The position numbers and the translations under genes were made by a program. The notes under the pieces were generated by a model, which made no database searches, was not told where the DNA came from, and saw only the letters and a list, made by a program, of their open reading frames with translations. From positions 13,650,258-13,714,257 of the forward strand of contig JAMKCF010000001.1 in the NCBI GenBank assembly GCA_023634235.1: 64,000 nt of DNA, in the 5' to 3' direction. This document shows, one piece after another, positions 5,605 through 53,505 of the stretch (position 1 is the first letter of the stretch; each line of letters opens with the position of its first letter). The DNA is from Pisaster brevispinus (taxonomy: Eukaryota > Echinodermata > Asteroidea > Forcipulatida > Asteriidae).

Positions 5605-6141
5605 CTATGTACTTTGAATTTCTCGACCGAAAAAAAATTTGCCGAATCAAATAAGCTTGGACAGTGCGCCGATAAAATCTAATCGAAAGTTATGAAAATA
5701 TAAACGCTTTAGCTGTCAGTAGGCCCTACAAAATTGAAAATTTTAAGAAATCTTACCTTTGCCCTTCTGTCTGTCCTCATCAGCTCCATAATCTTTTTAA
5801 AAACCAGAGTGTAAGACTTATGCCCCCTTTCCACTCAAAACTCTCTTTGCCACACAGAACTTCTGACCTTCTGACCTATGTACTTTGAATTTCTCGACCG
5901 AAAACAAATTTGCCGAATCAAATAAGCTCGGACAGTGCGCCGATAAAATCTAATCGAAAGTTATGAAAATATAAACGCTTTAGCTGTCAGTAGGCACTAC
6001 AAAATTGAAAATTTTAAGAAATCTTACCTTTGCCCTTCTGTCTGTCCTCATCAGCTCCATAATCTTTTAAAAAACCAGAGTGTAAGACTTATGCCCCCTT
6101 TCCACTCAAAACTCTCTTTGCCACACAGAACTTCTGACCTT
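5605..6141 (-). repeat. 271-bp tandem duplication carrying a first-exon-like segment
   Basis: Two nearly identical copies, 5605-5875 and 5876-6141. On the minus strand each contains ATG GAG CTG ATG followed by a short open stretch ending in a consensus splice donor (AAG|gtaaga; donors at 5756 and 6027). The copies lie just upstream of the DUF7869-type gene, so they may be duplicated 5' exons or promoters of it. The phase does not join exon 1 as coding, so a non-coding leader is more likely. The copies differ by only a few substitutions, which points to a recent duplication. Confidence 0.8.
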
Positions 6142-25679: not shown

Positions 25680-28205
25680 GAGAAATACTAATTGTCAATG
25701 TTTATGATAATTCTATTGATTACCATTCTGCGCTTACACAGCAAGTGCCGAATATCTGCACAAGCTTTCTTAGCAAAGAATGCCTAGTAACGTGAAGTAT
25801 GCACACACAGAGGCAATGATTCCCCGTTTACCAACAAATTACGTGTGACATAAGCATGGAATTCCCTGCTTTTGTAGGTGCCACTTCTTTCCTTACAGTA
25901 AGAAGAGACATGATATTACCAAAGCCACCTCCAACAAGACTGACTGTGCAAATATTGGTCACGTTTTACACAGTCTCTCACTTCACAGACAATAGCACTC
26001 ATTCAAGTACCGGGAATATGATTATTTTCACAACCAACAGTATCCGTGCTAACTCCTAGCTAACTGTACACAAGCTAAAAAAAAACATAAACAAGTTGAA
26101 CAGGTAATAATAATAATAATATTTACAATTTATATTGCGCCCCTTACATACAAAGGTACATGTGTGGACAAGTATGGTAGCCATCTAATCATGTTTATTT
26201 ATACAATTACTTAATCGTATTACATAAAGATTTTGTATTTCTTTTTTATATTATTATTTTTTTGCGGGGGGGGGGGAATGGGGAAAGCACTAAATATACA
26301 ATACTTATCACACATAAGTGTAAGGTTTAAACCAGAAAAATCATCCTTATGCCCAATGTAATCATTATGTCCATTAACTCAGTACTCTACCTCAACTTTA
26401 AGCACTCACAAAACCCCGTTCCCACACCATCAACACATGTAGGAAAAGAAACTGTCCTCAGTGCCTATAACTCTAGACAATGTAATTTGTATGTCAACAA
26501 ATGTTCCTAAACAAAAACAACAAAACACAGAAAACAAATGTAAAACCTGTCCAAAACCTTCAGCATGAACATGAAACTGAAATACATTCGTGCGCAGACA
26601 ACCATGCCATAAATGTTTTTGATTTTTATTGTTGTCAAACAAAGTCAACACAGGTAAACCTGCTTCCTTTAGGCCTAATGGATTTGAAAGCAGTTATTTA
26701 CACTTACAGAACAAACAAATCTAAGATTTGAAAAAAAATGTCTTAGTTATGTAGGGCCCCAGCTAATTAATCAAATTGATGAGTTTTACTCCATGTCACA
26801 TTATTTGAAAATAACTAAACCCTAAATCAAAGAAATTTAGAATTTGAAAACATATGCAACCAATGTTGCCCTTAGCAACCAGAGTACTTTACACCCTGTA
26901 ACAAAAGCCAACTGCAATTAAGTGTACTCAACATATCCTTGGCGTGTCACAAAACAAACATTGACTGCCTATACTCATGATATGCTTTAAACTACAGCTC
27001 CCTCGGTGATACCCTGACCGCTCTATTTCCTTCAACAATGCTTCAGCAAAACAGAACACTTCACAAGACCACCTCAACTTGACAGAGTTAAACCAAAGCA
27101 CTCAAAACAGTCATGTCCTCCACTTATATATAATTTACTAATAATAGCACCAAAACGATGGAGATATTACATTTATTACACAATAAACATGCCATTACGC
27201 TAAAAACCCTTCGCATTCAAAAGATCATTACAGTTCCTGATGCTGTGTACTGGCGCCTAGCACCAAGAAACAGAGGGAGTCTTTTATGTTATTACCATGG
27301 TGGTGTATCGAGCCCCACTGCATGAGTGACGAGTGTATGTTATTGCTATGCTAAACTGCTAAACTGAAGCAGCAAGTGCAGTGCTAGTCCTACCATGTCC
27401 CACACTACAGACTACAGGCAGACAGTCTGACTGCCAGAATTCAGAAAGTACATACATGTAACAAAGTTAAATACTAGCCAAAGAACATAGAATCGCAAGG
27501 CACAACACCACACACAGCACTGACTGCACCATGTGCACTCATGCACTGCACTGGCAACTGCTGGACATGCTGGACCTCAATCAATATTGAATGTAAATGT
27601 TACCATGGATTGGAAGTACAACATGTAGCCCTCCATGATGTCACTGACACCGCAGCCATGTGTATTTCGTTGGGGGTAACCAGATCTTTGAATATAGGAT
27701 TACTAGCATGTTTTGCAAATTATGTTTGGTAACATAATATTAAACAAACTAATAAAATGACTATACGATCTACAGCTTGAAAGATTTGCAGGTTGGATTG
27801 GCTCTGCATGGAATGAACGTCAGACAACCAGCACTCAATTAACAAGTTTACGTTACACACCGCGTAGCTAGCTACAGTACTACAACGAGTACTTCTTCAA
27901 GTTCATGTCATGGTGATGATCGAGTGTACACAAGAAAGTAGGACTACATGTGTCATTTACTGTATTGTATTAACCATGGAGGTACCTCCATGTATTAACC
28001 ATAGTTCACTCTGAACATCACTAAAAATACCCTACAATTACAAACTAGGACTAGGAGTAGTAGTACTAGTAGCACGTTGATAATTCAGATTTAACCATTG
28101 AGTAAAACACAACACCTAATTGAAAACAATTATGACAAAACAAAATACTGAAACATCTCACTAAACCAAGTAAAATCTTCTTCTTTTTTTAGAAAAACAT
28201 TTATC
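25680..28205. other. Non-coding stretch
   Basis: No supported gene. A short (ATA)n tract followed by tttacaatttatattgcgcccc (26107-26145) looks like the 3' tail of a tRNA-derived SINE. A run of 11 G lies at 26266-26276. An 18-bp perfect palindrome, catggaggtacctccatg, lies at 27975-27992. Confidence 0.4.
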
Positions 28206-32212: not shown

Positions 32213-33808
32213 TTAAAGTAAGGCAATCAAATCCTCAAGTGTTTCTTGTACTTCAAAAGAATTACTTGCGGGAGAAAGATCGTTGAGGGCGCTTTCAGAC
32301 TCAGTTGGGTCTGGTGGCAATTTTGCTCTGATGATCATTTCTCTTATGTTTTTGTCTTTTTTGAAAGCAATGAAAGGTGCGTTCGGAAATATTTCCGTGA
32401 GTGTGTCATCGCTTTGAATTAGAGGCCAATGTTTTGAGATTGCCCGTGATATGTCCTTGTGGAATAGTGCCGGGTTGTAGGTTGTTGTGAAGACGAGAGG
32501 GTTTTTTTCATTTTGTTGGGGTACTTCCAATGTTTTGTGAATCAAATTCGTACGTTCATGATGTGATACTTTATGTATCTGTGTGTTTATTTCATCATGA
32601 GTGTAGCCTCTTGCTGTGAGTTTGCTTTTGAAAGTCTCGACTTTTTCGTTAAAATCCTCTATGTTGTTTGTGTTTCTTGCAAAACGGAGGGTTTCTCCGT
32701 ATATGAATGCGTTAAACACATGTGGTGGATGGGATGAGGATTTGTGGAGGTATTGATAGGTTTCAGTGGGTTTAGTATAGACTTTGGTGTCTAGTATACC
32801 TGTTTCACGGAACCTTTTACCTTTGTATATGGTCAAATCAAGATAATTAACTGAACAATTGGAGGCCTCAAAAGTGAATTTGAGGGTTGGGTGCATTTGA
32901 TTCATGGTAGTTACCAGGTTTTTGAATTCTTCAATATCGCCGCCATAGATTATGAGTATGTCATCTCTATAGCGCCACCAAGTGAGGATGTGGTCAGCTT
33001 GTTGAAGGATTTGTTTTTCGAGATCATGGAGGGTTATGTCACAGATTTCTGGGCTAGCTGTAGAGCCCATGGCACAACCGACTTTCTGTAGGAAATATTT
33101 ATTTCCGAATTGGAAACAATTTCTTCCAATTATGAGTTCCAGAAGGGTACGGATGTGTGAGGAATGTGGCTTGTTAATGGCATATTGATGGTTTGTTCGG
33201 TCGAGCGCATTGCATACACAGTTAATCGCCTCTGTTTGGCGGACATTTGTGTACATTGAGACAACATCAATGCTGGTAATCAGTACATCTTGTGGAAATG
33301 ATGTTTCTTCTAGTTTTCGCAAAATGTCTGTTGTGTCACGGACATAGGTTGGTTGCGAAGTAACTATCGGAAGGAGGAAATAATCCACGAATTCAGAAAT
33401 CTTTGCTGTGGGGCTCGTGCATCCGCTGATTATGGGTCTACCAATGAATTGTTCTCCCGGGGGTGGAGTTTTGTGTATTTTTGGTAGAAAGTACATTGTC
33501 GGGCATTCCACTTTCTGTGTGAGGGGGTCGAGGTATTCATAGGTTGTGCGGTTGATGATGTTTTGGTTGGCCATTTTGGAGAGGGCATTGTGAACTAAGT
33601 GACTTGTTACATGTGTAATATCTTGTTCTAGCTGCTCATAATGCTGAGAACTAAGATGGCGGTAGCCTACGGCCAGATAGTCAATGGTGTTCATAATGCA
33701 AATTCCTCTGCCTTTGTCATATGGTTTGATCACGATGTTTTTGTTGTTTTTTAACTGTAATAGAGCCGATCTATGTTTCTTGGTCATATTGTTTTTTTGT
33801 TGTTTCAA
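32213..33808 (-). CDS. Penelope-like element reverse transcriptase
   Basis: Retroelement RT, open over about 530 residues. Visible: NIVIKPYDKG near residue 30, MYFLPKIHKTPPPGEQFIGRPI, ITSIDVVSMYTNV (catalytic Asp, motif A), KVGCAMGSTASPEICD (motif B), WWRYRDDILIIYGG (YRDD-type motif C), FTFEASNCSVNYLDLTIY (motif D) and REMIIRAKL near the C-terminus. This is the telomerase-related PLE fold. The frame ends soon after the RAKL block at ALL-stop; the GIY-YIG endonuclease usually found downstream is not present. The N-terminal part is in another frame (33952-34230), so the copy is not intact overall. Confidence 0.9.
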   Translation of the reverse strand: MKQQKNNMTKKHRSALLQLKNNKNIVIKPYDKGRGICIMNTIDYLAVGYRHLSSQHYEQLEQDITHVTSHLVHNALSKMANQNIINRTTYEYLDPLTQKVECPTMYFLPKIHKTPPPGEQFIGRPIISGCTSPTAKISEFVDYFLLPIVTSQPTYVRDTTDILRKLEETSFPQDVLITSIDVVSMYTNVRQTEAINCVCNALDRTNHQYAINKPHSSHIRTLLELIIGRNCFQFGNKYFLQKVGCAMGSTASPEICDITLHDLEKQILQQADHILTWWRYRDDILIIYGGDIEEFKNLVTTMNQMHPTLKFTFEASNCSVNYLDLTIYKGKRFRETGILDTKVYTKPTETYQYLHKSSSHPPHVFNAFIYGETLRFARNTNNIEDFNEKVETFKSKLTARGYTHDEINTQIHKVSHHERTNLIHKTLEVPQQNEKNPLVFTTTYNPALFHKDISRAISKHWPLIQSDDTLTEIFPNAPFIAFKKDKNIREMIIRAKLPPDPTESESALNDLSPASNSFEVQETLEDLIALL

Positions 33809-34230
33809 ACGAATATGGCCAGTTCGAATTTTGTGGCTTCCAAATAATTCTCAAGTTTGAGATTAGATGTTGATTTGGGAAACCAAGTGGAGGGTGGTTT
33901 GAAGGGTTGGGTTTTGGAAGTCTTATTATGCATGAGGTATTTGATTCTCATTCATCGATTGAAGGTATTTATGTCTTTCAAAAGAGAACGGCGTGTGGGT
34001 TTGGCTGGGGTAGGAACGAAATTTAGACCTTTCCCCAATGTGATTTTCTGATGTGAAGAAAGATCAACATTAGATAGGTTTGTTATGAATTGTTCGCTTT
34101 GTTTTGCCAAATCTGTTAAGAGACTATGTTGTCTCTGTTGGGACATTAATGAGCAGTGGCGGGAAAAGCGTGTGGCTTTTCTCAAATTTTGTGCGAGCGA
34201 CTTTCTTTTATTATATTTACGATTAACCAT
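33809..34230 (-). pseudogene. Penelope-like element N-terminal region, frameshifted
   Basis: 34230-33952 reads RKATRFSRHCSLMSQQRQ, then SSHQKITLGKGLNFVPTPAK, the conserved block that precedes PLE RT domains (GLxFxPTP). A TGA stop after INTFNR is followed in the same frame by MRIKYLMHNKTSK and FKPPSTWFP. The frame must then shift by one near 33830 to enter the RT frame. The basic start may be nucleic-acid binding or a nuclear signal. One stop plus one frameshift indicate an inactive copy. Confidence 0.78.
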
Positions 34231-36060: not shown

Positions 36061-36893
36061 CTCTGAACTGGTATAAAAGAAGACGCACCACCATGAACGT
36101 AGGGTCTTTTTTTCCAAGTTGTCAAAGGGGCCAAGTTAGTGTTATTTCCTTCCCCTGTGAGTTAATTTTTTACGAACCATTTAACACAGGCCAGCATGTG
36201 GGCAACTGGTTCGCCCTCGACTCTCACAGTATGTTCAATGTAGTGCTTTACTGTGCCTGGTCGCAAATCAGCAAGACAATCTATGTTCCCCCTTATCTGC
36301 CCAATGTGCAATAACTGCACTGTTGTTACGAGACCTTTTGTTTAAATTTGACCCAAATACTTTGTTACCAATATGTATATTTCCAAACTTACGGCAAGTA
36401 AGCTGCAAATTTTCCCACAATTTATTTTCATGTTTGTAATTGTGTTTGTATGCTTGCCATAAGTCGTTTAAATCTAGAGAGTCAAAAGCAGTGACAATAC
36501 CTGGGCCTACAGGTTTAACAGAATTAAGGTTTGAAAAAGAATTTACATCAAATGGCCCTTTCCAAGTACAAACAAGTTCTAAGACAGTCGATGGCATCAA
36601 TAAACTGTCTTGTTTAGTATTCATAACGGGTGAGATATTGTTAAAGATGTAAGAAAAGTCCTCGCTGAAAAACGACTAGTCAACAAATCTTTTCACAAAA
36701 GGGATTCGGGTAACAGTCGTCATAAATTGCACTTCAATATTAATATTATTAGTGGGGATGTCTGCTATAAATCCGTTAAATCTTTCAAATGAGAAGCACC
36801 AGTAGGCCATTACTGGACCAAGGTCAACAATACATTGCTTAAGATGATTATGAAGATGCATGTTCGGTGTTATCGCCAAACAACCGTAAAGTT

Positions 36894-38551
36894 TACTAAT
36901 TTTGGTTTTTACCCTACACCGATGTGTGTTAGCACTGTATACTCAGTACTTTCCCGAGTTCTGTGAAAAAAATCACAGGCATATTTAGCTCGGGTGAGAT
37001 TCGAACCCACGACCTTTGCAATTCTAGAGCAGTGTCTTACCAACTAGACCACCGAGATTGCCCGGTACCTAGAGGCAGTTCGAATCCTATATTTTAGCAG
37101 CGGGTACCGCAACGATTTTAATAGATGTTAAATTTGCATCGGGGATAAAGAATACTAATTTTGGTTTTTACCCTACACCGATGTGTGTTAGCACTGTATA
37201 CTCAGTACTTTCCCGAGTTCTGTGAAAAAAATCACAGGCATATTTAGCTCGGGTGAGATTCGAACCCACGACCTTTGCAATTCTAGAGCAGTGTCTTACC
37301 AACTAGACCACCGAGATTGCCCGGTACCTAGAGGCAGTTCGAATCCTATATTTTAGCAGCGGGTACCGCAACGATTTTAATAGATGTTAAATTTGCATCG
37401 GGGATAAAGAATACTAATTTTGGTTTTTACCCTACACCGATGTGTGTTAGCACTGTATACTCAGTACTTTCCCGAGTTCTGTGAAAAAAAATCACAGGCA
37501 TATTTAGCTCGGGTGAGATTCGAACCCACGACCTTTGCAATTCTAGAGCAGTGTCTTACCAACTAGACCACCGAGATTGCCCGGTACCTAGAGGCAGTTC
37601 GAATCCTATATTTTAGCAGCGGGTACCGCAACGATTTTAATAGATGTTAAATTTGCATCGGGGATAAAGAATACTAATTTTGGTTTTTACCCTACACCGA
37701 TGTGTGTTAGCACTGTATACTCGGTACTTTCCCGAGTTCTGTGAAAAAAATCACAGGCATATTTAGCTCGGGTGAGATTCGAACCCACGACCTTTGCAAT
37801 TCTAGAGCAGTGTCTTACCAACTAGACCACCGAGATTGCCCGGTACCTAGAGGCAGTTCGAATCCTATATTTTAGCAGCGGGTACCGCAACGATTTTAAT
37901 AGATGTTAAATTTGCATCGGGGATAAAGAATACTAATTTTGGTTTTTTTACCCTACACCGATGTGTGTTAGCACTGTATACTCAGTACTTTCCCGAGTTC
38001 TGTGAAAAAAATCACAGGCATATTTAGCTCGGGTGAGATTCGAACCCACGACCTTTGCAATTCTAGAGCAGTGTCTTACCAACTAGACCACCGAGATTGC
38101 CCGGTACCTAGAGGCAGTTCGAATCCTATATTTTAGCAGCGGGTACCGCAACGATTTTAATAGATGTTAAATTTGCATCGGGGATAAAGAATACTAATTT
38201 TGGTTTTTACCCTACACCGATGTGTGTTAGCACTGTATACTCAGTACTTTCCCGAGTTCTGTGAAAAAAATCACAGGCATATTTAGCTCGGGTGAGATTC
38301 GAACCCACGACCTTTGCAATTCTAGAGCAGTGTCTTACCAACTAGACCACCGAGATTGCCCGGTACCTAGAGGCAGTTCGAATCCTATATTTTAGCAGCG
38401 GGTACCGCAACGATTTTAATAGATGTTAAATTTGCATCGGGGATAAAGAACTCGGGAAAGTACTGAGTATACAGTGCTAACACACATCGGTGAAGGGTAA
38501 AAAAACAAAATTAGTATTCTTTATCCCCGATGCAAATTTAACATCTATTAA
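36894..38551 (-). repeat. Array of six 259-bp tRNA-like units with inverted terminal copy and 12-bp TSD
   Basis: Units begin (tactaatttt) at 36894, 37153, 37412, 37672, 37931 and 38192, spaced 259-261 bp and nearly identical. The last unit is cut at 38450 and joined to an inverted copy (38451-38551) that spans a unit-to-unit junction. The whole block is flanked by aaccgtaaagtt (36882-36893 and 38552-38563), a 12-bp target-site duplication. It sits inside the Tnp2 frame between KEYEQLYG and LAITPNMH. Each unit holds a tRNA-like sequence on the minus strand and a cctgtg..cacagg hairpin. No coding potential. The structure is compatible with one insertion of a multimeric template; PLE-type integration also gives partial tandem and inverted copies. 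Confidence 0.92.
36987..37058 (-). tRNA. tRNA-like element, unit 1 (SINE head, not a confirmed tRNA gene)
   Basis: Box A-like TGGTCTAGTTGG and box B GGTTCGAATC are intact. The D stem GTCT/AGAC and T arm GTGGG-TTCGAAT-CTCAC fold well, and the acceptor ATCTCGG/CCGAGCT pairs at six of seven positions. The anticodon stem is poor (two mismatches), so it is tRNA-derived rather than a working tRNA. Equivalent copies: 37246-37317, 37506-37577, 37765-37836, 38026-38097 and 38285-38356, all minus strand. The pol III promoter boxes could drive transcription of the array. Confidence 0.6.
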
Positions 38552-38674
38552 AACCGTAAAGTTGTTCGTACTCCTTACTAAATTTTAGGAACAGATAATC
38601 AGCCTTTTTGACATCTGCATAAGAGATGTATGACTTGCAAGTAAGTTTGCAAGCATTTGAGATGAACTGCCGCA

Positions 38675-40090
38675 AATGTTATTAATTTTTGTAATAAAGA
38701 ACTGGCAAAATAGCTGAGCCAGGGATTTACTACATACATGGCACGGAAGAGGAGATGGTTTCTTGTGTTTTAGAAGCTGATTGGCGACGGAGAATAAGCG
38801 TTTCGAGTCACTTCCACATTCCTCAATTGTATTGATGTAGTAGGTACATTTCGCTATCCGGACGAGGGAGTTTACATGCTGTCTTTGGTTGCGATATAGT
38901 TGGAGATTGATTTCCAGTTTGTTCGAGCGCCACTTTCGCTCAAGTTGTCTGCGCTTCCGTTTCTCGACCACAATCTCATGGTTGTACCATGAGGCGCCTT
39001 GACGCTTCTTTGTACTGTAGATTCTAGCTGGTGCACAGGTGTCAAGAAGGTTTTCCAGAGCAGTGTTGTAGTGCTTGACGGCGCCATCAATGCTGTCTGT
39101 GGAGGCTGGCATGATGTTGCTCTGCTGCAAGCTCCTGGCAAATGAGGCCCTGTCAATTGCTTTGATGTTCCGACGAACCATTGTTCGGTCAGCTAAGCAT
39201 GGCTTGTGAAGATGAAGATGGCATACAATAGCAGCATGATCAGATATACCAGGCATGACCCGAAGATCTGAGTATATCTGTTTCTCCTGTTTGTGAGTAA
39301 TGAAGACATCGAGGATGTGACCTTTGTCGTGTGAGGGTGACGAAACTTCCTGGGATAGGCTGTAACTGACAAGCAAGTCATTAAACTTTCGCGTGTTTGG
39401 TGCTGAAAGATTATCGAAGTGGATGTTAAGATCGGCAGTTATAACTAGGGGTGTGGATCTAAAAATTCTTTCATCGAGCATCAGGGAAAACTCATCAATA
39501 AATTGTGAAAAAGTAGACTGGTTCCCAGGTGGTCTGTAGGCGATGATAATGTCCACACTGATACTGTTGGATGCTAGAGTACCTGACATCATCTCAAAAC
39601 TACTCAGATGGTCATCTGACGGCTTGATAGTCAGCTTTAGTTCTTCACGGAGCAGAAGGCCGATTTCACCTCCCCGTCTGCCAGCTCTGGGGTGATGCTT
39701 GAAGATGAAACCACTTGGTACCAGATCAGCAACTACAGCATCATTGCATGATGTCAACCATGTTTCACAGATGCACACTATGTCACAACTGTTGTCCAAT
39801 ACAAAGTCTTGAAATTCTGTAGATTTGTTGCAAATTGATCGCACATTTAGCATACAAAAGCAGTTTGTCTGACTGTTGTTCCCGGTTATTAGAAATGTCT
39901 ATTTGAGACACTGCATATAAGTGGTGAAGTTCATGTTGTGAGCACTGTTGTTGTATTTATCGTCCAGCACCTTTACTTCCGCGATGGGTTTTCCTTTTGC
40001 GGAGAATGCCGAGAGCTTTAATTCTGTTGAAGACTTTGTTAGCCAATTTGTTGCAGTTACTTTTAGTGACTGGCTTGAGATTGTGTAGAG
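38675..40090 (-). mobile_element. LINE 5' fragment with EEP endonuclease, RT missing, inside the Tnp2 gene
   Basis: Starts near 40090 with a basic ORF end (LKPVTKSNCNKLANKVFNRI, LRKRKTHRGSKGAGR). After an in-frame stop near 39900 the endonuclease frame 39853-38680 begins with MLNVRSICNKSTEFQDF and CDIVCICETWL (catalytic Glu). It continues with YRPPGNQS, TPLVITADLNIHFDN (Asp/Asn), GHILDVFITHK and PGISDHAAIVCHL (catalytic SDH), the AP-endonuclease-like domain of CR1/L2-type LINEs. The frame runs through the linker to SLAQLFCQFFITKINNI, where RT should follow, but the sequence passes directly into Tnp2 coding text. LINE copies normally lose their 5' end; this one lacks its 3' end. Confidence 0.8.
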
Positions 40091-41579
40091 TAGCCTTTTT
40101 GGTCAGAATGTCATGCTGGACCCAGTGACTGAATACTCTTCTAGCTGTTCCTGTGAACACATTATGCATAGGGTCTATGACTCAAAACCTCACTGCATCA
40201 AAATATTCTAAGTCTAGGAAGCGTGAGTACCGCACTCCCAGTGTTTTCTCTAATTTCTCCCGTTTCCTGAGGCTGGTACACCTAATGACCCTTGTAACCA
40301 ATCTTTGGTGGACAGTGTTACTGCGTGACACCCATGTGTTTTTATTAAACCCCCCATAATTGTGTTTTTTCTTTGGTCTACCACGGTTGTCTGTTTCTCC
40401 AGTGGGAATGCAAGGGGATTCTTTGAAACATTTAGAACAGAACAATTGTGCACTATGACTTAAGAAACCGCAAAGTTTGCGATTTGCTGGAAGATCAGAG
40501 AAACAACACATTAGTGCTCCACGGATCGTTATTATCTCACCATTTACACTCACTGGGACTTCCGTCCATAAAGCTTTAAGCTCTTTGTCAATTGGTTCCA
40601 GAAAGGTGTTAAGAGATGCCGGCTCTTTGTTTAAGGAAGGAATAACCCCAACAACAATTGTGTTCTCAGGTTTAAACCTAATGTGTCTTGGCAGATTTAA
40701 AACGGTTAAATAAATAACGCCAACGGAGACAACTCTACGCACATACGGTTGAAACCAGTCGCAGTTCAGCATGAAGCCAAAAAGTGAACCAGTCGGTTAG
40801 AAATGGTCGCTCATTAATTGTTTGGAATTCTTTCCACACTTTTCCATCGTAGATGTCCGCCAAATAGTCAGACGGTATTTTACGACCCTTCCACTCTTCA
40901 CAAGCATCCAAGAAAACTTCTTGCTGTATCATAATTTCAAGCCTTTCTATAATACTTTGGACACAATAAATTTTCAATGGATAAAATTTCTTTTCACCTC
41001 CAGAGAGTCTTACTGTTTTAACTAGCTTTTCATCGCATTTAACCTGATGCCCTCGAGATTGAACCCAGGAATTCGAACATCTACGAGCATTGGAAATCCC
41101 ACCAGTTTCGTAAACGAGCTCACTAAAATCATACAATTTGGTGTATTTTGGGCAAACAGCAAATTTTATGAATGCATCCCTGTCGAAATTTAGATGGCTC
41201 CTTATCATGTACATTGATCGGGGCATAGCAGCTGAAATTTTTGCCATAGCAGACACTTGCCGACCTATGACTTGAAATAAGATTTTTAAAAACCCTAGAA
41301 GCTTTTCCAAAGCTCTATCACTCACGAGGTACGTGGTCTGCCATAAGAGGATAAAATGGCAAACCCAAAGTAGGAGGGCTTTCAGTTTTCCTTGAATGCA
41401 CAATTGTTGTCCGTCTTCTGTTTTCCTTGTTTTGCTGTGAACCATCCTCAATCAAATCTTGTAAGTCTCTTGGGTCCGTTTCTGTCTCCTCCCAGTGGTC
41501 GTCTTCGCCATCTGAACTGTCACTGCTACTAGTAGTGGCTGTTTTAGATGAGTCACTCTCGTCATCCTGAAATGACAAT

Positions 41580-42989: not shown

Positions 42990-43413
42990 TAACATAATAA
43001 TAATAATAATATATTGTATTTGTATAGCGCCTACTGCAGGCCAGCCTCTAAGCGCTTAACATTCAGTATTTCCTGCAAGGTATTTGGGGCTACGTTTAAA
43101 GTATGAGACCTACTCCTTTACATAGCACCTTGTAATGGTTTACAAGGTGCTGTGGCGCAATATGCAGCCGATCAAACCAGGAACACCGGGGCGGACCCCT
43201 TCTCTTTTCGATAAGTGCACTGGGTTCTTTTTCGTGCGTTACACAACACACGGGACCAACGGCTTTACGTCCCATCCGAAGGACGAAGCAATCATGGTTA
43301 AGTGTCTTGCTTAAGGACACAGGTGTCACGACCGGGGCTCGAACCCACACTCTGCTGATCAGAAACACCAGAGCTTGAGTCCAGTGATCTTATCCACTCG
43401 GCCACGACACGCC
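42990..43413 (-). mobile_element. tRNA-Leu-derived SINE
   Basis: The 5' head on the minus strand (43413-43322) reads as a tRNA with a long variable arm: GGCCGAGTGGATAAG (box A), GGACTCAAGCTC (anticodon loop with CAA, Leu type) and GGGTTCGAGCCCC (box B). The body follows, and the 3' tail contains gcgctatacaaatacaat and (TAT)n at 43011-42990, the usual end of LINE-mobilised SINEs. No coding capacity. Confidence 0.82.
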
Positions 43414-53111: not shown

Positions 53112-53505
53112 TTTACTCCACCCAACCCCCACTGAATTGTAGCTTTTTGGTTTTTATTAGCATGTATAAAGCTATAATCTGAAGACAGACATAGTTCGCA
53201 ATTAGTAAACACATAACAAAGTTAATTATACTGTGTAGGCAAAGCAAAGGGCATTGAATGGAATTAGTCTGGGCAGGAAAGACCAGGGAAGATTTATAGA
53301 AAACAATTACTCCACCCAACCTCCACTGAATTGTAGCTTTTTGGTTTTTATTAGCGTGTATAAAACTATAATCTGAAGACAGACATAGTTCGCAATTGGT
53401 AAACACATAACAAAGTTAATTACACTGCGTTGGCAAAGCGAAGGGCATTGAATGGAATAATGTAGTCAGGGCAGGAAACAGGAAGATTTATAATAAACAA
53501 TTGGA
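53112..53505. repeat. Tandem duplication of about 194 bp upstream of the piggyBac gene
   Basis: Two copies start at ttactccacccaac (53112 and about 53306) and share ctgaattgtagctttttggt, gaagacagacatagttcgca and aagggcattgaatgga. They lie 160-550 bp before the transposase start, where subterminal repeats or promoter elements of a piggyBac element would be expected. Confidence 0.85.

Follow-up and report, generated by a model that had tools for sequence, protein, structure and literature searches.

The window analysed here is a 64,000-nucleotide stretch of the sea star Pisaster brevispinus (contig JAMKCF010000001.1, positions 13,650,258 to 13,714,257, forward strand; contig C1 of the 550-Mb assembly that we searched). 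At 36894-38551 it contains a tandem array of tRNA-headed units that is probably a young copy of a large non-autonomous retroelement family, inserted in the manner of Penelope-like elements from a joined or circular RNA. The insert consists of six minus-strand units and one plus-strand arm, with a target site duplication (TSD) on both sides. Positions in the sense unit (u) are counted from the unit boundary drawn in an earlier note on this DNA, with u1 at 37152 and u259 at 36894. That boundary, where the window array happens to begin, is here called E1. The second site, E2 (u36), is the precise 3′ end of the element, and E1 lies 36 nt upstream of it.

The array and its insertion site

From left to right the units measure 259, 259, 260, 259, 261 and 259 bp and share 99.2-100% identity with unit 1, confirming the six near-identical units described in the earlier note. 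The 259-bp unit and 101-bp inverted piece that it reported also exist, with the refinement that units range from 259 to 261 bp and that the opposite-strand arm, at about 38447-38551, measures about 101-105 bp; this arm is 95-97% identical to the units. In the sense direction each unit runs through the tail end, a linker, the tRNA-like domain, a hairpin whose loop contains a T run, a conserved core (about u190-u240) that we presume to resemble the Nin domain, and the tail, at a G+C content of 42.5%. All six units match Rfam RF00005 at 49.7 bits (cut-off 29) and ARAGORN agrees, while neither Rfam at E ≤ 5 nor a core-motif scan of either strand found a hammerhead in the unit; a tRNA-like domain thus does stand in place of a hammerhead, as had been proposed. 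No open reading frame (ORF) of at least 100 amino acids lies inside the insert, which makes it at most a dependent element. Its features are as follows.

36882-36893: left TSD copy, 12 bp, AACCGTAAAGTT
36894-38450, minus: E1-started arm of six tandem units, antisense on the plus strand; its left outer edge is E1 (sense TTAGTA/TTC)
36894-37152, minus: unit 1, the reference
37153-37411, minus: unit 2
37412-37671, minus: unit 3
37672-37930, minus: unit 4, with the single private substitution u208T>C
37931-38191, minus: unit 5
38192-38450, minus: unit 6
36986-37058, minus: tRNA-like domain of unit 1, u95-u167 (Rfam and ARAGORN)
37245-37317, 37505-37577, 37764-37836, 38025-38097 and 38284-38356, minus: tRNA-like domains of units 2-6 (Rfam)
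37059-37116, minus: linker of unit 1, from u37 (just past E2) to u94 (before the tRNA-like domain), placed by sequence
37137-37183, minus: predicted 13-bp hairpin, u229-u16, with E1 in its apical loop; the sequence recurs at every unit junction
38447-38450: strand-switch microhomology, 4 nt (AGAA), common to the array end and the opposite arm
38451-38551, plus: E2-started arm, sense, from about u195 to E2 (ATTAA), the 'inverted piece' of the earlier note
38552-38563: right TSD copy, 12 bp, AACCGTAAAGTT, a perfect repeat of the left copy

The target is a Tnp2 reading frame, whose two parts flank the array.

36679-36881, minus: interrupted Tnp2 frame, downstream part, from joining the flanks (C1:13686936-13687163)
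38564-38639, minus: interrupted Tnp2 frame, upstream part, from joining the flanks (C1:13688807-13688896)

When the flanks are joined with one TSD copy, a single open frame of 97 residues results, and the same frame is uninterrupted at C1:7904116 (residues 1-97, 95% identity), C1:9002872 (residues 1-97, 94%), C5:8978368 (residues 2-97, 89%) and C1:7187447 (residues 1-93, 89%). Further uninterrupted copies of lower identity occur elsewhere; the window copy is in two pieces. Because the flanks join and the frame is whole at four other places, we regard it as established that the window array has a TSD, was cleanly inserted and interrupts Tnp2, and the earlier claims of a flanking 12-bp direct repeat and a split Tnp2 frame stand, confirmed by an empty site in at least four paralogous copies. 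Pfam found no match in the joined 97-residue piece; a tnp2 match appeared in one of the six ORFs scanned near the site, at 40182-40796. A SINE (short interspersed nuclear element) likeness that seemed to run on into the right flank (24 bp at about 71%, judged by eye) was rejected, since this flank is Tnp2 coding sequence. Also inside the Tnp2 gene, adjoining the array, is an ORF on the minus strand (38585-39898) with a LINE-type (long interspersed nuclear element) endonuclease match (Pfam Exo_endo_phos) and no reverse transcriptase match. An assembly artefact is unlikely for the array, as it sits in a chromosome-size contig and its family recurs across the genome.

Two start sites at the outer edges of copies

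Two queries were used to sample the family. The whole array gave 239 matches from the best 40 of 5131 first-look candidates, and 39 stretches were fetched for places among the matches listed. One monomer (L020:854-1062, minus, u88 to u35), with the best 40 of 2713 candidates scored, gave 33 new loci, from which 13 were taken regardless of strand and nine were chosen for both-strand matches, leaving out 11. Counts below rest on 51 loci after removal of duplicates, namely L002-L008, L010 and L011 (the same locus as L009) and L035, L036, L039, L040 and L042-L046 (the L014 insertion as borne by further copies of another repeat). Of the loci retained, L037 and L047 have a flank in common and are not fully independent. 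In the L014 group (L014, L035, L036, L039, L040 and L042-L046) one family insertion lies within a different dispersed repeat, and the two have multiplied together. Viral contigs, scanned with one exact 24-base pattern, gave 0 matches.

Among the 51 loci, 20 are one-strand, 30 are two-strand and one was left unclassified by the script; in the strand-blind set of 13 monomer-query loci, nine are two-strand. In all 27 strand switches with both arms of about 30 bp or more, the minus arm lies on the left and the 3′ ends point outward. The outer edges of 3′ type (n = 81) concentrate at two sites, 33 at E1 (standard deviation 3.8 nt) and 38 at E2 (1.7 nt), with 10 elsewhere; the counting windows, within about 8 nt of u259/u1 for E1 and u31-u41 for E2, together cover 37 of 259 positions (14%). 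The two sites are used as a pair. One E1 edge and one E2 edge bound 23 of the 30 two-strand loci, while E1/E1 and E2/E2 combinations number zero. The pair is found in 10 of 13 two-strand loci of the multimer query, in 8 of 9 of the 13-locus monomer set and in 5 of 8 among the chosen nine. L080, called 'other' by the script, reads by eye as E2/E1 with a 10-bp TSD and lies outside the 23. Of the rare 3′ edges at neither site, several lie midway in the tRNA-like domain (L047 at u129, L078 at u144, L083 at u138, L084 at u116 and L010 at u138), a number too small to carry weight.

TSDs accompany these edges. A TSD score of at least 9 was reached at 24 of the 51 loci, whereas among 997 mispaired controls 4 did so; the duplication is 12 bp long in 14 of the 24 and 9-17 bp in the rest, and 19 of the 23 E1/E2 loci possess one. 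L022, where E2 is for once trailed by an A-rich tail, has an 11-bp repeat beyond the tail that the scoring script missed. At the inner join, microhomology of at least 2 nt is present in 15 of 27 strand switches. The outward switches, the TSDs and the empty site bear out the earlier view that the array arose by reverse transcription and not by local duplication of a monomer; together with the E1/E2 pairing, the outward ends and TSDs also support its comparison with Penelope-like insertion.

E1 is an internal start site and not a unit boundary. Folding predictions for the linear monomer and for the circle both place it in the apical loop of a hairpin of 13 bp; a 130-nt fragment is predicted to fold without this structure. 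As the inverted piece of the window ends at E2, with E1 about 36 nt inside, it necessarily contains E1 and is no proof of joined units. The earlier argument from this piece therefore falls in both its steps: the 'junction' that it spans is E1, which a second, old family copy in the window (26281-26377, 70% identical) also runs across, and any E2 arm longer than about 36 nt must cross E1.

Nor do the edges implicate the tRNA-like domain, outside which E2 and E1 lie by about 59 and 92 nt. The 5′ edges fall near its borders in 0 of 85 cases at u92-u98 and in 1 of 85 at u165-u171, with about 2.3 expected at each; cutting or circularisation of the RNA by tRNA processing enzymes, as suggested earlier, finds no support in this absence of enrichment. 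A weak, unexplained excess of 5′ edges occurs at u56-92 (25 of 85, expected 12.1) and at u180-196 (13 of 85, expected 5.6). A motif scan requiring at least 4 T matched 131 units, of which 118 have a T run of at least 6 separating head from core, so that an RNA polymerase III transcript starting from the tRNA-like head should usually stop before E1 and E2.

We propose that insertion would proceed by two-sided target-primed reverse transcription, in the Penelope-like manner, at a staggered cut of about 12 bp. One target strand would start its cDNA at the precise RNA 3′ end, E2, and the other in the predicted hairpin loop at E1, which is 36 nt nearer the RNA 5′ end. Each cDNA would run toward the RNA 5′ end, often for more than one unit, since the template would be joined head to tail or circular, and the two cDNAs would then be joined, often through a few nucleotides of microhomology. 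Such an event would leave outward 3′ ends, one with and one without the 36-nt tail.

Two other routes to the same edges were weighed. One is LINE-driven SINE retroposition with twin priming, E2 being used first and E1 internally, and with multimers derived from transcripts of tandem copies. tRNA-headed SINEs normally use LINE enzymes, and twin priming, too, leaves the 3′ ends outward, with TSDs and with short stretches of microhomology where the arms meet. LINE internal priming would, however, be expected at many sites, whereas E1 alone accounts for 33 edges, and the two-strand share of 9 of 13 in the strand-blind set exceeds that known for L1. In addition, E2 arms pass E1 although the other arm starts there, so that parts of the RNA were copied twice, which is hard to obtain from one linear monomer. 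The LINE-type ORF beside the array, the one LINE sequence looked at, gave endonuclease matches only. On balance we consider this route unlikely, though to be taken seriously. Multimers as such would suit it, as those of the Dip SINE reach eight units (PMC8466645). The second route is a single cDNA whose 3′ end folds back and copies itself, the second edge being a mere stopping point. Microhomology at the inner join could prime the fold-back, and for Penelope a self-priming origin of inverted copies has been put forward (PMC3846280), but a variable second edge would be predicted where we find a fixed complementary site in 23 of 30 loci and no like pairs, and we give fold-back very little credence.

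Joined units, variants and unit number

Evidence for a multi-unit or circular template comes from the 45 of 51 loci that continue past E2 into the next unit's linker. The unit junction is held in these 45 loci and in 9 of 13 of the strand-blind set, and the monomer is not the usual inserted form; a family made up mostly of single units, which would have spoken against the earlier note, is thus not what the sample contains. The concatemeric or circular template that the note had postulated is accordingly supported by passage through E2, and not by the junction-spanning arm on which it had been based.

The variants indicate that the units of a locus usually, if not without exception, stem from one monomer type. 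Three independent insertions, namely the window array, L012 and L009/L010, have units close to one monomer sequence, with no substitution common to the three; the T run and one A run differ in length from unit to unit. Uniformity across units is also seen for u87G in 8 of 10 testable loci and for u47A in 8 of 9. Among all informative variants, 168 are concordant and 76 discordant within loci (31% discordant versus 76% expected for independent draws). Set against a single type per locus are these discordant variants (at mid-frequency non-CpG positions, 44 are concordant and 31 discordant), the divergent E2 arm of the window and L016, which mixes two subtypes among its tandem units at four diagnostic positions, u21, u85, u156 and u257, as would happen if two subtypes were linked together or if copying moved to another template. 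Transcripts of mixed tandem copies, as in the LINE-driven route, would likewise join different subtypes. The one-type pattern fits a one-unit circle or a mostly homogeneous source array, with some jumping or mixing.

Unit number is a separate matter. In 45 of 51 loci the total is 1.0-3.1 units, and a shorter array may have been inserted in the window, its six units arising later by unequal exchange or slippage, a scenario compatible with any insertion mechanism. Whole units can be gained or lost once an array is in place: L009 has 20.3 units versus 14.3 in L010/L011, with flanks 98-99% identical, and L014 has 3.74 versus 1.75 in sister copies, with flanks 98-100% identical to those of L045 and L046, its two closest copies. 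Moreover, the variant pattern of the 20-unit L009 array suggests internal block duplications of 4-5 units. As unit number changed after insertion at these two loci, the six window units need not have arrived together, and of the earlier claim that the block was inserted as one piece the insertion itself survives, with the number of units left free to have changed. The window locus itself bears no sign of later expansion; its six units have private changes only. We regard later expansion there as a real possibility, while leaning somewhat against it.

Spread by recombination as a SINE-derived satellite, for which there is a precedent in the Nin-SINE-derived satellite of limpets (PMC11121367), is in our view barely credible here: copies are short and dispersed, often with TSDs of their own and with fixed ends, and the empty site in the window is clean.

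Penelope-like elements, known systems and other repeats

We take a Penelope-type enzyme to be the probable mover of the unit, because its opposite-strand arms, outward ends, 36-nt offset, hairpin start and joined units match the anatomy of Penelope-like elements. Penelope copies have an inverted pseudo-long terminal repeat (pLTR) on one side, an optional 31-bp tail on one pLTR and TSDs of 8 and 9 bp (PMC3846280). A purified Penelope-like protein cuts and extends both target strands, reverse transcription begins internally in an AC-rich stem-loop, and the proposed template is an mRNA of multiple copies, with a 30-40-bp tail in a fraction of genomic copies (PMC11167929). The unit shares with the Penelope/Poseidon type the outward opposite-strand arm, the optional tail of 30-40 bp on one end, partial tandems and the TSD (PMC3846280, PMC11167929), and its predicted hairpin parallels the internal start in a stem-loop (PMC11167929). 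It differs in having a tRNA-like head, no reading frame and no hammerhead, in sharing no detectable end sequence with the Penelope-like copies examined, and in its usual TSD of 12 bp as opposed to 8 and 9 bp in the rotifer (PMC3846280).

At least two Penelope-like lineages are present in the genome. One is intact (L048-L059): several copies have an intact ORF of 910 amino acids, which in L052 matches reverse transcriptase and GIY-YIG. This lineage has been recently active and has pLTRs, core-like hammerhead motifs and ends that are mostly TA repeats. The other is of the window type (32213-33850 and L060-L063); the reverse transcriptase at 32213-33850 has echinoderm proteins as its nearest named relatives (Patiria miniata, 53%, and Amphiura filiformis, 41%), with environmental sequences closer still (up to 90%). 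One copy of this second lineage, L061, carries an arm on the opposite strand and has its 3′ ends facing outward; this agrees with a Penelope-type reading but is a single case with no visible TSD. The comparison of array ends with Penelope-like insertions of the same genome that the earlier note had called for yields the outward arms of L061 and, in the intact lineage, of L049, with no end sequence shared with the unit in either lineage and with mostly TA ends in the intact one. The 3′ end of the window-type lineage was also tried as a link to the unit, but the best alignment, though in a plausible register, is not significant, and the link was dropped. Rfam at its gathering score found no hammerhead in L052 or L060-L062. 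Histone 3′ stem-loops occur close to copies of the window-type lineage (Rfam Histone3 matches in L060 and L061).

Several points weigh against Penelope-like insertion from joined or circular RNA. Within the sample, 7 of 30 two-strand loci pair E1 or E2 with some other position, the two-strand call at L021 rests on a 17-bp match, and the window E2 arm has substitutions absent from its six units. The monomer query ended at E2 and could favour loci that hold E2, but it would favour neither E1 edges nor E1/E2 pairing, and the multimer query gave the same rule. In the genome, no autonomous partner emerged among the Penelope-like elements examined: the 16 loci lack a match to the unit, and the 3′ ends of five window-type copies resemble E1 no better than expected by chance (P 0.18-0.88). 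Of the 12 copies of the intact lineage, three are two-strand with 3′ ends inward, lying tail to tail around a TA tract, and one (L049) is outward. Core-like hammerhead motifs occur in all four Penelope-like loci scanned by motif and are absent from the unit. In the literature, the Penelope-like enzyme used top and bottom strands in vitro without a difference in start site, a result from which no strand-specific pair such as E1/E2 would be expected (PMC11167929), and inverted Penelope ends have been attributed preferentially to self-priming (PMC3846280).

A more specific proposal is that the unit is a tRNA-headed, SINE-type element that, independently of any LINE, parasitises a Penelope-type enzyme, is copied by going repeatedly round a circular, or along a self-joined, hammerhead-free RNA, and starts from both target strands at two fixed sites; each insertion would then be a natural record of target-primed reverse transcription from two sides. 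We put this forward as tentative and rather doubtful, and rated it slightly lower still once L016 proved to mix subtypes. Movement in trans has a parallel in the pLTR-mediated capture of a host gene by Penelope in a bdelloid rotifer, for which non-coding pLTR sequences suffice (PMC3846280). There the moved piece bears recognisable pLTRs of a named element, which the unit does not. Metazoan non-LTR (long terminal repeat) retrozymes resemble the family in their tandem units of 150-450 bp, from dimers to long multimers, low G+C content, TSDs of more than 4 bp, non-coding nature and a mobiliser suspected to be Penelope-like (PMC7229834, PMC7761336). Their defining features are a type I hammerhead and known circular RNAs, whereas the unit has no hammerhead core and is known here from DNA alone. 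According to a 2020 review, metazoan retrozyme repeats have no conserved motif from which a mobiliser could be deduced (PMC7761336). With tRNA-derived SINEs, in particular the Nin-domain SINEs whose core it is presumed to resemble, the unit shares its tRNA-like head, the conserved core and tail, a high copy number and a TSD. It departs from them in the unit junction present in 45 of 51 copies, in the many both-strand arms with two fixed 3′ starts, and in the T run of at least 6 that should halt RNA polymerase III before E1 and E2. Joined SINEs as such are not new, given the Dip multimers of up to eight units. In the open-licence literature, by title or opening abstract, we found no report of a tRNA-headed SINE moved by a Penelope-type enzyme.

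The family touches on two open questions, the insertion route of Penelope-like elements and the mobiliser of hammerhead retrozymes, and it offers many short, datable insertions with two well-placed start sites, a predicted hairpin and clean TSDs. If our reading is correct, Penelope-type movement would extend to tRNA-headed elements without a ribozyme, and the choice between circle and concatemer would become testable. The data suggest that a SINE whose end is inverted need not be a by-product of twin priming and can have a definite architecture of its own, and the outward pattern hints at an unrecognised route by which small tRNA-headed elements spread.

Three other features of the window deserve mention. 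Two-copy tandem repeats occur at 5605-6141 (271 bp, 98% matches) and at 53113-53502 (194 bp, 90% matches, with a sub-threshold Rfam match only), either of which might be a dimeric mobile unit. At 43322-43413, on the minus strand, ARAGORN predicts a tRNA-Leu (caa) that has no Rfam match at the cut-off and is perhaps another tRNA-derived repeat.

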